DNA from: an uncultured Lachnospiraceae bacterium
Lineage (GTDB): Bacteria > Bacillota_A > Clostridia > Lachnospirales > Lachnospiraceae
Reading direction: 5' to 3'
DNA: 23,961 nt
Assembly (NCBI GenBank): GCA_947178085.1
Contig: CAMWWS010000005.1
Location: forward strand, 1 to 23,961
Part shown: piece after piece, positions 15,734 to 21,813 of the stretch
How the letters are laid out: each line of letters opens with the position of its first letter
Position numbering within the stretch: position 1 is the stretch's first letter
The notes under the pieces: generated by a model
Told to the model about the DNA's origin: nothing
Databases searched by the model: none
What the model saw: the letters and a program-made list of their open reading frames with translations, nothing else
Made by a program: the position numbers and the translations under genes

Positions 15734-16606
15734 ATGAACGCTGTTGAAACAATATCGCTGACGAAATTTTACGGCAAGGCAAGAGGGATTACAGACATAA
15801 ATCTGACTGTAGCCGAGGGCGATTTTTTCGGATTTATTGGTCCGAACGGCGCGGGTAAAAGCACTACTATACGAATACTCACGGGGCTTATTTCCCAAAC
15901 AAGTGGAACTGCGGAAGTTTTCGGAAGGGACATCCTCAGCAAAAGGACTGAAGTACTTGCGGATATAGGATATATGCCATCCGAGGCAAATTTTTACCAC
16001 GGTATGAGAGTGGGTGAGGTAATAAAATATTCCGCGAGATTGAGAAACCAAGACTGCGCAAGTGAAGCGGCGAAGCTCTGTGAAAGACTGGATTTGGATG
16101 TCAGCAGAAAAATATCCGAGCTTTCGCTTGGCAACCGCAAAAAAGTTTCCATAGTCTGCGCCTTGCAGCACAGTCCGAAACTATGCATACTTGACGAGCC
16201 TACAAGTGGTCTTGACCCGCTTATGCAGCGCGAATTTTACGCAATTTTAGAGGAGAGAAATAAACAGGGAGCAACGATTTTCCTGTCCTCACACATTCTT
16301 TCCGAGATACAGAAGTACTGCAAGCGTGCTGCTGTTATCCGCGAAGGTCGGCTGTTATTCTGCGATTTTGTGGAAAATCTTGTACACAGCAACGCGAAAA
16401 AGGTCGCATTGTCGGGCATTTCCGAACTGCCTAAGCTTGAAGGTATAGCGAATGTTGAAACTGACGGCGATACGGTTAAGTTCCTATATAGTGGAGAAGT
16501 GCGCGAACTTATGAAGATGCTTGCATCTTTGCCGATAACCGACGTAAGCATTTCCGAACCCGATCTGGAAGAGATTTTTATGCATTATTATACGGAGAGC
16601 AAGTGA
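15734..16606 (+). CDS. ABC transporter ATP-binding protein (TetR-linked exporter)
   Basis: A 290-residue ATPase with Walker A GPNGAGKSTT (about residues 36-45), the signature LSLGNRKK (G and N in place of the commoner SGGQ), Walker B LCILDEPTSGLDP and the H-loop SSH. An ABC-2/NatA-like C-terminal extension of about 75 residues ends in DLEEIFMHYY, the usual EEIF motif of drug and antibiotic exporters. GAGGG lies about 15 bases upstream of the ATG. The permease follows 19 bases downstream. Shared upstream DNA with the TetR gene suggests common control. The substrate is unknown. Confidence 0.92.
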   Translation: MNAVETISLTKFYGKARGITDINLTVAEGDFFGFIGPNGAGKSTTIRILTGLISQTSGTAEVFGRDILSKRTEVLADIGYMPSEANFYHGMRVGEVIKYSARLRNQDCASEAAKLCERLDLDVSRKISELSLGNRKKVSIVCALQHSPKLCILDEPTSGLDPLMQREFYAILEERNKQGATIFLSSHILSEIQKYCKRAAVIREGRLLFCDFVENLVHSNAKKVALSGISELPKLEGIANVETDGDTVKFLYSGEVRELMKMLASLPITDVSISEPDLEEIFMHYYTESK

Positions 16607-16625
16607 AAGGGCTAAGGGTATTAAA

Positions 16626-17411
16626 ATGACAATTCTTAAACATGAAATAAAACAGGGGCGGAATTCGCTTATTATTTGGACGGCGGTCATCGCATTTATG
16701 ATGGGATTGTGTATTATTATCTATCCGGATATGTCCGGGCAGATGGACGGTATAGGCGATGCATTCGCGAATATGGGGGCATTTTCTGCGGCATTCGGAA
16801 TGGATAAGATAAATTTTGGTGAGTTTTTGGGATTTTTCGGAGTGGAGTGCGGAAACATTCTCGGTCTTGGCGGTGCGTTCTTTGCGGCATTGATTGGCAT
16901 TTCGGCACTATCCAAAGAAGAGAGCGAGCACACTGCCGAGTTTCTTATGACACATCCTGTAAGCAGGAAGAACGTTGTTGCTCAGAAGTTCGTTTCAGTA
17001 ATGGTACAGATAGTCATACTGAATGCAGCAGCTATAGGCGTTACGGTACTGACAACGATGTTTATCGGTGAAACTCCCGATATAAAGCCGCTTGTACTGA
17101 CGTTCGCGGCATACTTTATAATGCAGGTCGAGATTGCCGCAGTCTGCTTCGGTATTTCAGCGTTTATAGGCAGGAGCGGGCTTGGGATAGGGCTGGGACT
17201 GGCAGCAGCCTTCTATTTTCTGAATATCATTGCGAACCTTACCGAGAAAGCTGAATTCCTGAAATATATCACACCGTTTGGTTATACCGACAGCGCGGAT
17301 ATTATCGCGGACGGGCGCATTGAAGTGAAGTATCTGGCAGTCGGGCTTGTTGTAAGCGTTATAGGGACAGCCGCAGCTTTTTGGAAGTATGGGCGGAAGG
17401 ATATTTCCTGA
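16626..17411 (+). CDS. ABC-2 permease (TetR-linked exporter)
   Basis: A 261-residue membrane protein with about six hydrophobic segments: NSLIIWTAVIAFMMGLCIII, ILGLGGAFFAALIGISAL, MVQIVILNAAAIGVTVLTTMF, LVLTFAAYFIMQVEIAAVCF, GIGLGLAAAFYFLNIIANL and LAVGLVVSVIGTAAAFW. The motif SKEESEHTAEFLMTHPVSRKNVVAQK is characteristic of ABC-2 permeases. AAGGG before ATG 16626 serves as ribosome site. Its stop is only 4 bases from the stop of the converging nuclease gene, so the two transcripts must end inside each other's coding DNA or overlap. Confidence 0.9.
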   Translation: MTILKHEIKQGRNSLIIWTAVIAFMMGLCIIIYPDMSGQMDGIGDAFANMGAFSAAFGMDKINFGEFLGFFGVECGNILGLGGAFFAALIGISALSKEESEHTAEFLMTHPVSRKNVVAQKFVSVMVQIVILNAAAIGVTVLTTMFIGETPDIKPLVLTFAAYFIMQVEIAAVCFGISAFIGRSGLGIGLGLAAAFYFLNIIANLTEKAEFLKYITPFGYTDSADIIADGRIEVKYLAVGLVVSVIGTAAAFWKYGRKDIS

Positions 17412-17415
17412 TGCG

Positions 17416-18294
17416 TTACTTTTCTTTTAAGCAATACTCCCGATACAACTGTTCACGGTATTTGCTATCGGAAAGCGCCCGCTGCAGTTCTTCGGTTTTT
17501 CCTGCATCCATAAGAGATTTGAGCATTAGGGCAAGTGCGTCACGGCCCTCAGTACGGCCTTCTTCGCGCCCAATTTCGCGCCATTCTTCACGTTCACTCT
17601 GTATATGCTTCTCTTCATCATACTCAAAGATACTCATCGCTATCGCCTCCGCACGATTCTTAGATAAAAAGTCCGAAAGTATTCCATTCATGATACAATA
17701 GTCTACAGCCTTCCCGACTGCTTCGGAAAATGGCATTTCTTTTGCAAATGTCCTGACTTGTTCCACATACTGCGCATATTCTTTTAGAAGTTGACATGCG
17801 TCTAATAGTTCTTGGTTATGCCCTAAATTAATATTATAAACAGTCACGGTCAGGTCTAATGCAGGCTGCTCCTGTTTCTTCTCAAAAGCATTTGAGAGTT
17901 TCAATATCTGCTGTTCAGGCTGGAAATCTGTGCCATTATAGAATACCACAAATTTTGGTGCAGGAATCCGGACAATGGAATTACTATAAAGATTCTTGTC
18001 TTTTGTTCTGCCCTGTAGGATTCCTGTCACATAGAACAGATCTCTTAACGGCATGTTGGGATTAAATGTTGACTGATGTTCATAAAGCAACAGTTCAAAG
18101 TCAAACACAAAAGAAATATCGTTCTTATAATTCAAATAGACAGCATTTTCAAGTGTGGTGATTTCTAATCTGTCTACGTCCGTGTAGGTAGTTGCATTCA
18201 GTGCATTATACAGACTCAAAAGATTTTCTTTTTCTCTGAATAACATCCTGAATACAGTGTCTTTGTAGTTGCGTTGTACATTTGTTTCACTCAT
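17416..18294 (-). CDS. Rpn-family recombination-promoting nuclease/putative transposase
   Basis: A 292-residue protein with the PD-(D/E)XK nuclease pattern of the Rpn (YhgA-like) family: NYKDTVFRMLF near the N-terminus, then YKNDISFVFDFELLLYEHQS with D59, D65 and E72-x-Q74, and NPNMPLRDLFYV. The C-terminal part is charged (EEWREIGREEGRTEGRDALALMLK), with the repeated GREEGR-type motif usual in this group. The frame is open to 18423, but ATG 18294 is preceded by AAGGAGG at 7 bases and starts MSETNVQRNYKD, the family's normal beginning. Rpn proteins of E. coli promote RecA-independent recombination and are linked to phage defence. This role is inferred here. Confidence 0.88.
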   Translation of the reverse strand: MSETNVQRNYKDTVFRMLFREKENLLSLYNALNATTYTDVDRLEITTLENAVYLNYKNDISFVFDFELLLYEHQSTFNPNMPLRDLFYVTGILQGRTKDKNLYSNSIVRIPAPKFVVFYNGTDFQPEQQILKLSNAFEKKQEQPALDLTVTVYNINLGHNQELLDACQLLKEYAQYVEQVRTFAKEMPFSEAVGKAVDYCIMNGILSDFLSKNRAEAIAMSIFEYDEEKHIQSEREEWREIGREEGRTEGRDALALMLKSLMDAGKTEELQRALSDSKYREQLYREYCLKEK

Positions 18295-18663
18295 AAATGT
18301 CCTCCTTAATAGTATGGCAAATCTTTCAAGATAGGTTAGATTACCGATGCAGGAGAACTGTTTCAAACCCTCCTGCTTTGTGCTAATGTTAATTGGAATC
18401 AAAGCATGGATTTTCTGAAACATAGAATATGATAGAAACTGCTAATCTGATTTTATAGAAAATATGCTTTTTATTACTATAACATTTTTTGACGGAATAA
18501 TCAACACATTTTTATTAAAAATAATAAAAATTATATATAATATTAAAAATACTACCATATATCCCTCATGGTAGTATTTACTTTTTCCAATAAAATGCTT
18601 TATATTGTTTAAAACACATACCACATTCGTTTATGTATCAATACATGAAAAGGAGATTACTAT
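18295..18663. other. AT-rich intergenic region with two perfect inverted repeats
   Basis: No supported gene in 369 bases. An inverted repeat GCAGGAG (18349-18355)/CTCCTGC (18370-18376) lies in the leader of the nuclease gene. A stronger 12-base perfect stem is at 18547-18579. A 14-base near-palindrome, ATGTATCAATACAT (18633-18646), sits just before the ribosome site of the next gene and could be an operator. Promoters on either strand are unclear: a TTGACG at about 18491 has no good -10, and a TATATT at 18601 has no good -35. Confidence 0.5.
18547..18579. terminator. 12-bp perfect hairpin of unknown role
   Basis: AAATACTACCAT (18547-18558) pairs perfectly with ATGGTAGTATTT (18568-18579), with a 9-base loop. 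The minus strand continues TTTAATATTA, like a terminator, but no minus-strand gene lies upstream. The plus strand continues ACTTTTTCC, also weakly terminator-like. It lies about 85 bases before the next plus-strand gene and might be an attenuator or a boundary. Confidence 0.4.
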
Positions 18664-19146
18664 ATGAAAAGAAAAAATTTATTCATCATTTATCTGTCAG
18701 AGTTTTTGGTTTTGGCTGCGGGTTATGTTCTGCTGGTAATTAGGGGAAACAATCTTTTTACCATGCCTGCATATGCATTGGTTGACCCACCCACATTGCT
18801 GTTGCTTTTCATCTTTTCAGTTCCGGTTTTGATAGGCTCCGGTTTATGGAAAGACCTGTTTCGGGCTTTCAAAGCAGACCAAAGTTCTCTTATCAAATTG
18901 AAAAGAACTCTTGAAGCAGTGAAACTTTTGCAGCGTCAGATTTTTTATACAGGATGCGTCATAATCATATTATCGGCGCTTGTTACATTGTATACGGCAG
19001 CGCAAAACGAATATATCCTTGAACCAGCACAGTTATTTGTCACAATTTTACCTGCCATATATGTGACGGCGCTGGAGCTTTTGCTTGCACCTCTGTATAC
19101 AGTAACCAAACTGGAAATCTTAGATTATATGGGAAGAGACGAATGA
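18664..19146 (+). CDS. Four-TM membrane protein, first gene of a three-gene operon
   Basis: A 160-residue protein, not firmly recognised. Four hydrophobic segments lie at about 7-26, 42-61, 93-113 and 124-147, with a basic cytoplasmic-looking loop (WKDLFRAFKADQSSLIKLKR) after the second. The stretch VDPPTLLLLFIFSVPVLIGSGLWKDLFRAFK faintly resembles the start of MotA-type stator proteins (a Pro in TM2 and then KD-RAFK), but no other MotA feature is present and I treat this as weak. AAAAGGAG lies 9 bases before the ATG. Its stop overlaps the start of the next gene (ATGA), implying coupled translation. It may act as a sensor or scaffold for the membrane-bound regulator. Confidence 0.75.
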   Translation: MKRKNLFIIYLSEFLVLAAGYVLLVIRGNNLFTMPAYALVDPPTLLLLFIFSVPVLIGSGLWKDLFRAFKADQSSLIKLKRTLEAVKLLQRQIFYTGCVIIILSALVTLYTAAQNEYILEPAQLFVTILPAIYVTALELLLAPLYTVTKLEILDYMGRDE

Positions 19147-19598
19147 AAGGATACGGAAAACAGATTCTATTTACAGGATTATATCTGATTATGCTGACAT
19201 TCCTGCTCGTCCTGCAATACTGCTATATAGACGGAATGATTCCCAGACTTCTTGCAAGCGGAATTGCGCTGCTTCTTACATTTCCATGCCTGATTTTAAT
19301 GAGGAGATGGAAAGATGCAGTTCTGCCGGATGCTGGTGTGGAAAAATCGCCTGTGGAGAGAGAACTTGTGTGGAAAGAGTTTTTGAAGTGTTTGTCCGAA
19401 TACTCGCTTACAAAGCGGGAAGCGGAGGTAGCATGGCTGATATATCGGAAATATACCAATGCACAGATTGGAGAGGAACTTTTTATTTCCGAGACGACTG
19501 TAAAAAAGCATGCCGGGCATATTTACGAAAAAATGTCTGTAAACGGAAGAAATGAACTGATAAAAACCATTGATGATAAATGGGAGGAATTGTTGTGA
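19143..19598 (+). CDS. Membrane-anchored LuxR/GerE-type transcriptional regulator
   Basis: A 151-residue protein. The N-terminus holds two closely spaced TM segments (about 7-28 and 32-53), placing both ends in the cytoplasm. The C-terminal half (about 88-145) is a classic LuxR HTH: LTKREAEVAWLIYRKYTNAQ, IGEELFISETTVKKHAGHIYEK, MSVNGRNELI. There is no receiver or ligand domain. A DNA-binding domain fixed to the membrane by a hairpin must either act there or be released. The next gene, overlapping by 4 bases, encodes an intramembrane protease, which makes regulated release a natural hypothesis. The ATG overlaps the stop of the upstream four-TM gene. Confidence 0.9.
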   Translation: MKGYGKQILFTGLYLIMLTFLLVLQYCYIDGMIPRLLASGIALLLTFPCLILMRRWKDAVLPDAGVEKSPVERELVWKEFLKCLSEYSLTKREAEVAWLIYRKYTNAQIGEELFISETTVKKHAGHIYEKMSVNGRNELIKTIDDKWEELL

Positions 19599-20284
19599 AG
19601 GAAAAATTTAAATTGGGATTAAAAGCAGGGAGTGCGGTTATCGCCTTTTTGATTAGCGATAGTCTGCTTACGGAAATTTATGCATTATTTTTAATGAATC
19701 TGGATATGGATGAACATTTGATAAGGATTTTTTATCAGACAGGCAGCGTTTTGATTACATTATTGATGACATTTCCGATATTTATCCTTGTAATGAGAAT
19801 CTGGGGAAAATTGCCGAGGTTTCATCTGAAAGGGACGGTCGCCCTTACTCGCCTAAACTATCTGGTATATGCAGTGCTGGCTATGATACCTATGGTGTTC
19901 TTAGTGTGTATAGAAATATTTCTGATTCATCAAGGGCAGATTTCACAGGAAGATATAATCAGCCTCACGCAGGAAAATATGATATATACGCTTGTGTTTA
20001 GCTGCGTTCTACTTCCGGTTATGGAAGAAATCATGTTCAGGGGAATATTTCTTCACAGACTATTGCCCCTTGGCGCACTCTACGCGATTCTTCTGACGAC
20101 ATGTTTCTTTGTCATTATACATTACAATAATCCGGTAAATATGCTTTTGTCGCTTGTAACAGGACTGGTACTTACACATATGGCAGTAAAAGCTAAGGGG
20201 ATTCTGCCAACAATAATTTTTCATATAGGAATTAACCTGTTGGGACAGGTCATTCTCCCACTGTGCATAGGGCTGTTGCTCTAA
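19595..20284 (+). CDS. CPBP-family intramembrane metalloprotease (CAAX protease-like)
   Basis: A 229-residue protein with about six to seven hydrophobic segments and all CPBP motifs: EEIMFR (E144, E145, R149), FVIIH with H176 (F172-x3-H), and HIGIN (H210-x3-N214), which together bind zinc inside the membrane. The start is taken as GTG 19595, because GGGAGG (19582-19587) is 7 bases upstream and the codon overlaps the stop of the LuxR gene (GTGA). ATG 19580 would itself overlap that ribosome site. Family members include prenyl-protein proteases and bacteriocin-immunity proteins. Operon context suggests cleavage of the neighbouring membrane regulator or another membrane substrate, which is an inference. 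Confidence 0.88.
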   Translation: MKEKFKLGLKAGSAVIAFLISDSLLTEIYALFLMNLDMDEHLIRIFYQTGSVLITLLMTFPIFILVMRIWGKLPRFHLKGTVALTRLNYLVYAVLAMIPMVFLVCIEIFLIHQGQISQEDIISLTQENMIYTLVFSCVLLPVMEEIMFRGIFLHRLLPLGALYAILLTTCFFVIIHYNNPVNMLLSLVTGLVLTHMAVKAKGILPTIIFHIGINLLGQVILPLCIGLLL

Positions 20285-20325: not shown

Positions 20326-21813
20326 TTAATTGTATTCAAACCAGGGACTAAAATATTCTTCCGGTACAGGGTCCGGCATGGTGCTTTCCTTATACTCATT
20401 GGGGCGGGAAGAATAAGCCTGAACGGTAAAACGGTATGCGCTGCCGGGTTCATGTGACAGGAAACTTTCCCGAATAGAGATTCCGCCGTATCCCTTACTT
20501 ACAATATCGCTCTTTGTCCATGTATTATTCATCACGTAATTGCCGTCTTTATCATAGAAAGTTACATTAAAACTGTCTTTATCGTCATAGTCGTCAAGAT
20601 TGTCCCAAGTAGCATAATAAAGCCGGGAATTGTCTTCTTCATATATTTTCCACCTAAGCCCGGTTGGTGCCGGGAGAGGGAGCGCTGATTCGCCGGTGTA
20701 TACGAAAGCGTCGGACACTGTATACGGACTGTCTGTATATTGAATTCCGTCACCGACGGCGGATAGTGCAAAATAATAAATACCATTCTCTTTAAATTCC
20801 GTTGTAACATTCCAGTTCAGAGTTTTTTTATACATGTTATTACCGCCGCCTATTCTTATCAAATCTTCAAAATACCAGTCGCTGTCATCGGGCTCAGGCG
20901 GAGTTTCGGTATCTCTTCTATACAATCTCAAAGAAAACTGGAATTCATCTACAACACCAGATTCCGGCACATTATCCCATACTGCAATACCTGTCTCACC
21001 ATCCCAATGAGGGTTTCCCGGAACAGGCAGGACTGTCAGAGCGGTATCATTATCTTCGCTATTGGTTTGTATCCGGCTGTTCAAATCAGGCAGCTGCATT
21101 ACGCAAAATCCTATGAGAACAAGTAAACAGAGCGCTGCAATGCCACACAGAACATTCTGTCCTGTATGGAAAAAAGCATGCCTTACCTGCCGCACGGACT
21201 GATATCGTTTATCAGGGTCCAGATTCATGCATTTATGGATTATCTTTTTATAGCGTGTTCCCCAACGCTTATCCTCTAATAGACATTCCAGCGTTGCCCC
21301 CAGAGCATAAATATCTGTCCTCTCGTCGGTCTGGGAGAAACCATACTGTTCCGGCGGAGCAAACCCTTTGGTACCCAATAATTTCGTATCCTGCTCCTTA
21401 TCTGCCTTAGGGCTGCGGGCAGCGTCAAAGTCAATGAGATATACCTGCATGTCCTCTGTAATGAGGATATTGGATGGCTTAATGTCACGGTGGATTATCC
21501 CGTTTCCGTGCAGATATTCCAGAACGGAGCATAGTTGCCTGACAACATTAAGAAATTGTTTTTCGGACAATTCTTTGGTTGTTGAAGACTGCGCTTCAAT
21601 ATATTCTTCAATAATTGTTGTGGAATTTTCAGAAACAATAACCTCATGCAGCTTAGGAAGGCAGGGATGAGGATGGTTTTGCAGCATTTGATAAACAGGC
21701 TGCTGTCCGGCTAATTTCTTTTGGACATATAGCTGTGTTCCCTCTTTCTCACGCACCAGAAGCACAGTACTTTTTTCAGTCTGCTTTATCAGTTTTATTT
21801 CCTCGTATTTCAT
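20326..21813 (-). CDS. Membrane Ser/Thr protein kinase with extracellular FN3-like domains
   Basis: A 495-residue protein. The N-terminal cytoplasmic kinase (about 1-210) has K32/K33 (LYVQKKL), the catalytic loop IIHRDIKPSNI (D110, N115), LIDFDAAR at the metal site (DFD in place of DFG), and GTKGFAPPEQYG as activation and APE-like segment. The glycine-rich loop is poorly formed (IKQTEKSTVLLV), yet the catalytic residues remain. One TM segment covers about 219-240. The external part (about 258-495) holds two FN3-like repeats (LPVPGNPHWDGETGIAVWDN; LPLPAPTGLRWKIYEED) in place of the PASTA repeats of PknB-type kinases. It is divergent from, and shares promoter DNA with, a small HTH protein, a likely partner or substrate. 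Confidence 0.9.
   Translation of the reverse strand: MKYEEIKLIKQTEKSTVLLVREKEGTQLYVQKKLAGQQPVYQMLQNHPHPCLPKLHEVIVSENSTTIIEEYIEAQSSTTKELSEKQFLNVVRQLCSVLEYLHGNGIIHRDIKPSNILITEDMQVYLIDFDAARSPKADKEQDTKLLGTKGFAPPEQYGFSQTDERTDIYALGATLECLLEDKRWGTRYKKIIHKCMNLDPDKRYQSVRQVRHAFFHTGQNVLCGIAALCLLVLIGFCVMQLPDLNSRIQTNSEDNDTALTVLPVPGNPHWDGETGIAVWDNVPESGVVDEFQFSLRLYRRDTETPPEPDDSDWYFEDLIRIGGGNNMYKKTLNWNVTTEFKENGIYYFALSAVGDGIQYTDSPYTVSDAFVYTGESALPLPAPTGLRWKIYEEDNSRLYYATWDNLDDYDDKDSFNVTFYDKDGNYVMNNTWTKSDIVSKGYGGISIRESFLSHEPGSAYRFTVQAYSSRPNEYKESTMPDPVPEEYFSPWFEYN

Follow-up and report, generated by a model that had tools for sequence, protein, structure and literature searches.

Membrane-tethered one-component regulators such as ToxR and CadC are known, LuxR-type DNA-binding domains are known in their own right, and MotA/ExbB-fold proteins are familiar components of ion-driven motors. 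We analyzed a stretch of 23,961 nucleotides from an uncultured Lachnospiraceae bacterium (contig CAMWWS010000005.1; the whole stretch is referred to here as the window), focusing on an operon of three genes, g1, g2, and g3, and on the DNA in front of it. Like ToxR and CadC, the g2 product carries a membrane anchor (predicted by hydropathy) and a DNA-binding domain in one chain; unlike them, it has a C-terminal LuxR-type helix-turn-helix (HTH) domain, no extracytoplasmic sensor domain, and a partner of the MotA fold, g1. We propose, with a probability of about 0.6, that this operon turns itself on through a transcription activator that is tethered to the membrane and driven by a membrane sensor derived from a flagellar stator. 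The features discussed are as follows.

18549..18577, + strand: ATACTAC-N15-GTAGTAT inverted repeat, 0 mismatches, conserved in g1 leaders; proposed operator (autoregulation)
18577..18606, + strand: promoter-like site TTTACT-18-TATATT, its -35 position abutting the proposed operator
18633..18646, + strand: 14-base palindrome, considered and rejected as operator
18664..19146, + strand: g1, shortened MotA-fold protein of 160 amino acids with four transmembrane (TM) segments and without the large cytoplasmic loop
19143..19598, + strand: g2, membrane-tethered LuxR-type regulator of 151 amino acids; HTH at amino acids 88 to 141 (19404-19565)
19595..20284, + strand: g3, CPBP (Rce1-like) intramembrane protease of 229 amino acids with a GTG start; seen as third gene in the window's clade only

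The first-pass annotation of this DNA had described a four-TM protein, a LuxR-type protein with two N-terminal TM segments, and a CPBP metalloprotease with all catalytic motifs, and all three descriptions hold, although the MotA likeness of the first protein had been overlooked. Four hydrophobic segments are found in g1. Hydropathy places the TM segments of g2 at amino acids 8 to 26 and 35 to 53, and Pfam assigns its amino acids 88 to 141 to the GerE/LuxR domain (E 6.7e-16). The g3 protein belongs to the CPBP/Rce1-like family by its domain (E 1.2e-16) and by intact EExxxR, FxxxH, and HxxxN motifs (EEIMFR at 144 to 149, FVIIH at 172 to 176, and HIGIN at 210 to 214, i.e., E144 E145/H176/H210 N214). 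The 4-base overlap described for each pair of neighbors is present between g1 and g2; between g2 and g3 it depends on the start of g3, since the overlap is 4 bases with GTG 19595 and 19 bases with ATG 19580, and we prefer the GTG because a ribosome-binding site, GGGAGGA, lies upstream of it. Close homologues of all three proteins are present in the protein database and the g1-g2-g3 order is seen again in loci L001 and L002, so these are genuine genes rather than chance reading frames.

An alignment scan for the g2 family, with one genome per species, yielded 130 relatives, from which the best 80 loci, most of them from Lachnospiraceae, were kept. In 66 of these 80 loci, a simple rule places a g1 relative immediately in front of the regulator, and a closer look added eight more (L007, L008, L009, L044, L055, L059, L069, and L073), giving a total of 74/80; in L007, a MotA gene sits between the two. 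In L078 the g1 relative is ∼1.6 kb from the regulator, and none was found in L054, L063 (at a contig edge), L068, L074, and L077. The 4-base g1/g2 overlap recurs in 23 of the 66 loci, with starts chosen by script. The pairing of a membrane-held LuxR-type regulator with a four-TM protein across Lachnospiraceae is thus supported.

The g1 of the window has no Pfam match up to an E value of 10, PF01618 (MotA_ExbB) included, and Foldseek by itself gave no hit with E ≤0.001 for g1. The family as a whole is more informative: a g1 family profile finds MotA in PDB at E 7.3e-7, and PF01618 matches 20 of 51 members at E ≤10. Its curated cutoff is passed by the g1 of L013 (G004:C69:160144), with that of L043 below it and three others not seen. 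The g1 family shares with the MotA/PomA/MotP stators (MotA_ExbB) a four-helix fold with two long C-terminal helices and a D-x-P-[TS] motif at TM2, and most members keep the GPxxAV motif and the conserved tyrosine and proline around TM4. In contrast to the stators, however, it adjoins a DNA-binding protein, and the members compared with 11 full-length MotA sequences lack both the large cytoplasmic loop that contacts the rotor and the PAWG motif before TM3. The g1 family therefore belongs with the MotA_ExbB fold but, judging from the loop and the PAWG motif, is probably not a functional flagellar stator.

A GerE HTH is present in all 46 of 46 g2-family members. Positively charged residues follow the second TM segment of g2, so the HTH should be cytoplasmic, and the two predicted segments are joined by just a short loop (approximately amino acids 27 to 34), with no room given to a sensor domain of the ToxR/CadC type. 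The HTH is of the LuxR (NarL) kind known from LiaR, VraR, and DegU: the nearest solved domain to that of the window is 7x1k (titled DegU), and the LiaR and VraR HTH domains show 42 to 46% identity to one long g2 relative. Unlike those response regulators, the window protein has no receiver domain.

A search for inverted repeats common to the upstream regions of g1 brought out ATACTAC-N-GTAGTAT. Among 67 leaders (the 66 loci with g1 directly upstream, plus the window), the repeat is present with at most one mismatch and a total length of 28 to 30 in 51, and exactly in 31, whereas 100 shuffled half-sites averaged 0.05 and never exceeded 3; because the repeat was discovered in the leaders in which it was counted, 51/67 describes these leaders and does not test the repeat independently. 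Its lengths cluster at 28 to 30, with a minor group at 18 to 19, about one helical turn shorter, and in a tally of best matches this short form was found only with regulators of at least 190 amino acids. A -10-like hexamer begins 22 bases past the repeat in 16 of the 51 sites (every other offset reaches at most 3; that of the window is 23). This preferred offset means that the repeat abuts the -35 region, which is an activator position. Taken by itself, the promoter scan does no better than chance (8 hits versus 7.4 expected). On this basis, we propose that the repeat is the putative operator through which g2 would regulate its own operon.

The same repeat could conceivably act as an RNA hairpin, i.e., an attenuator or terminator, as it is palindromic and coincides with a terminator-like call on the minus strand (2 such calls in the region versus 1.4 expected). 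We consider this highly improbable, given that its length is confined to 28 to 30 (or 18 to 19) with a variable spacer sequence, that the position of the -10-like hexamer probably leaves it upstream of the transcript, and that it recurs before unrelated operons. The first-pass annotation had instead pointed to the palindrome at 18633 to 18646 as the target site. This palindrome exists, but it lies past the promoter-like site, ahead of the ribosome-binding site, and not where the conserved element is. The leaders of L001 and L002, similar in other respects, do not have it, and it is rejected as operator; the conserved repeat is the one at 18549 to 18577. Dyads as such are common in these leaders (6-bp arms with a spacer of 0 to 12 within 150 bp in 47/67, compared with a mean of 22.4 in mononucleotide shuffles). 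Some g1 leaders with the usual regulator are without the element, among them L091, where it precedes the MotA gene, and 11 leaders with more than two mismatches. The site is also missing (3 to 5 mismatches) in seven XRE fusions and in pairs with a soluble regulator, described below.

Outside the leaders, exact sites with a narrow gap (14 to 16) were sought in 48 further genomes, yielding 30 sites in 24 genomes versus 6 for the backward pattern. The pair's own locus accounts for 19 of them, and the 11 elsewhere comprise 8 before an exporter operon, 1 (G278) at a contig end beside the same energy-coupling factor (ECF) gene that accompanies the exporter, 1 before a MotA paralogue, and 1 (L185) without an evident target. 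A wide-gap search (3 to 16) in 21 genomes returned 24 forward sites versus 17 for the backward control, which is weak evidence alone, and two of its sites (L141 and L142) have no evident target behind them. Combining 4 genomes from the wide-gap and 8 from the narrow-gap search, the site precedes a three-gene operon for a MacB-type ATPase, a periplasmic-adaptor-type protein, and a MacB-type permease in 12 genomes, all of them close relatives; the operon was classified as MacAB-like on L139, and the other 11 were assigned by similarity to it. In a thirteenth case, L178, the contig ends before the exporter operon would come. Across the site from the exporter, an ECF-transporter S component-like gene (PF12822 in L139) is present in 12/12 (L137 to L140, L175 to L177, and L179 to L183). 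Among MotA paralogues, 7 of 10 cases examined have the site upstream with 0 to 2 mismatches, one of them in G258, whose paralogue is not next to the pair.

In G001 and G002, the two genomes closest to the window, the sole exact site found precedes the g1-g2-g3 operon, suggesting that the switch would act on itself and, with it, on the CPBP protease. A second target in this clade did not emerge: with as many as 2 mismatches allowed, the 29-base form gives counts that do not stand out from the control (4 versus 7 in G001 and 8 versus 7 in G002).

The protease had been given a more central role in the first-pass annotation, which proposed that, on a signal sensed by g1, it cleaves g2 within or close to the membrane and so sets the LuxR domain free to act in the cytoplasm. 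The catalytic motifs of g3 and the cytoplasmic side predicted for the HTH would allow this, and g3 seems to occupy third place in the operon across the whole of the closest clade, as 8 of 18 other g3 homologues in the protein database (60 to 87% identity) could be indirectly matched to genomes of close g1/g2 homologues or to L001. However, only 2 of the 80 loci, L001 and L002, have a g3 relative on the regulator's strand and no more than 250 bp away from it (CPBP genes elsewhere in the genomes of the other loci were not searched for). The pair and the DNA element persist in its absence, which means that in most genomes the regulator has to function with no such neighbor. A conserved protease neighbor, as expected for regulated intramembrane proteolysis, is thus not what we see, and g3 is rejected as the common trigger of the switch. 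The earlier proposal therefore stands for the membrane-held regulator coupled to a four-TM protein and falls for the protease as general releaser; likewise, the search for the three-gene order across relatives bears out its g1-g2 half and not its protease half. Release by g3 is quite improbable overall, though possible as a local refinement. The protease appears to be a regular third gene within the clade of the window but not outside it, which suggests that its place beside the pair in this genome is a late addition. Another possible clade-specific third gene, for a protein with six hydrophobic segments, lies 31 bases after g2 at L034:6239-7264.

If g3 does not trigger the switch, it may be an output, such as an immunity or membrane-stress protein, or a nonproteolytic modulator that tunes g1-g2. 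This reading is compatible with the stator-derived sensor, specifying the part of the protease in it, and we give it close to an even chance. It agrees with the position of g3 behind the conserved site and with the site preceding an exporter in other genomes. According to PMC9298176, bacteriocin immunity can involve CAAX proteases and the action of Abx1 on CovS does not depend on proteolysis, which would favor it, whereas SilX, the CAAX protease studied in that paper, is reported to have given no immunity. Both Abx1-CovS and MroQ, as described there, link a CPBP protein to a regulatory system as here, but they work with two-component or Agr systems, while the regulator of the window is membrane bound and mostly without a CPBP neighbor.

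A different role can be considered for g1, namely, that of an anti-activator: it would keep g2 sequestered at the membrane with no stator-like ring formed, and release or loosening would activate g2. The overlapping start and stop codons favor coupled synthesis of the two, and this arrangement would also fit L093, L094, L095, and L097, where g1 is followed by a soluble LuxR domain of 79 to 85 amino acids with an EQTVKNH recognition helix and no ATACTAC site. We nevertheless regard it as somewhat unlikely, given that long regulators and XRE fusions carry a MotA-like domain and an HTH in the same chain, which points to an integral sensor and not to a separate inhibitor. In 16 aligned proteins, including L099, L100, L101, L103, L109, L111, and L117, an XRE-type HTH is fused to a MotA-like membrane domain, and L099 and L100 exceed the cutoffs of both HTH_3 and MotA_ExbB. 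For the long regulators, the likeness to MotA rests on the fold, because the PDB profile match is weak (PomA, E 0.077); MotA_ExbB and MotA models gave no MotA match among the best 25 per protein.

Returning to the stator-derived sensor, the homologies, the gene pairing, the DNA element, and its downstream genes, as read from the sequence, would fit the following course. The g1 protein and the membrane part of g2 would be descendants of MotA that lost the rotor-contacting loop, and they may assemble in the membrane so as to hold at least two LuxR domains at its inner face. A disturbance would shift this assembly, letting the paired LuxR domains bind the ATACTAC inverted repeats and, judging from the position of the site, activate transcription from the abutting -35 region. 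In the window's clade, the switch would turn on itself plus the CPBP protease, with g3 as a clade-specific output or modulator and not a general trigger. The signal is probably a disturbance of the envelope or of an ion gradient, considering where the fold comes from and that one target is MacAB-like; envelope or antimicrobial-peptide stress is suggested by the site before the exporter, which occurs in one group of relatives.

In nine loci, the pair has a full-length MotA paralogue next to it. No MotB was recognized by eye in the seven of them inspected or found among ten Pfam-scanned proteins of the window; no MotB model was run on the genomes. These paralogues, often under the same DNA site, occur in L007, L035, L038, L046, L047, L055, L059, L060, and L091, with a further one at L184:3125-3907, and six aligned ones show [FL]-I-H-x-P-S and G-x-G-M-[SA]-L-A-L versus F-[LI]-D-x-P-S and GPxMxVAL in flagellar MotA. 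A class-wide search of 291 genomes returned 17 with E ≤1e-7, of which ten (frames of 264 to 277 amino acids, matching at the C terminus only) are most likely flagellar MotA.

Of 50 pair genomes (the first 50 in number order of the 66 pair loci), 48 have a FliG match, versus 128 of 250 genomes of the family, counts that ignore kinship and include one weak 168-amino-acid frame (G261) among the 48. Within the 250-genome set, FliG is present in all 11 pair genomes and all 16 XRE-fusion genomes that were among the best matches retrieved, and G024 (L107), with a stand-alone MotA-like gene, has no FliG match. As the pair occurs almost only in genomes with FliG, mixing with the flagellar stator itself is possible, although the association may follow from kinship. 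One could go further and imagine a whole class of bacterial transcription regulators with the flagellar stator fold as sensor, where a mixed ring of g1, the membrane half of g2, and sometimes a MotA paralogue with no MotB seen beside it would pass ion-motive force, membrane tension, or motor load to the LuxR domains, the XRE regulators having taken up the same fold separately; we hold this broader idea to be unlikely.

Around the operon, the window encodes an ABC transporter pair at 15734 to 17411 on the + strand (a DrrA-like ATPase and an ABC-2 permease, with a below-cutoff likeness to lantibiotic-protection families) and, at 17416 to 18423 on the - strand, a 335-amino-acid protein with no Pfam match, which is reminiscent of Rpn-type recombination-promoting nucleases. 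Convergent with the operon at 20326 to 21813 on the - strand is a protein kinase domain (Pkinase, E 6e-29), extended at the C terminus.

Among the matches listed in our literature searches, whose scope left out most subscription papers, there was no report combining a MotA fold with a membrane-tethered LuxR regulator, and in the accessible part of PMC10341847 the terms “transcription” and “DNA-binding” each occur 0 times. The occurrence of the MotA/ExbB fold next to DNA-binding domains of two unrelated kinds, and in fusion with them, suggests that this fold can serve as a signal receiver, and the DNA element, with its downstream genes, makes the idea directly testable. If true, such a role would represent a new type of sensor and offer a handle on how anaerobic gut bacteria read the state of their membrane.
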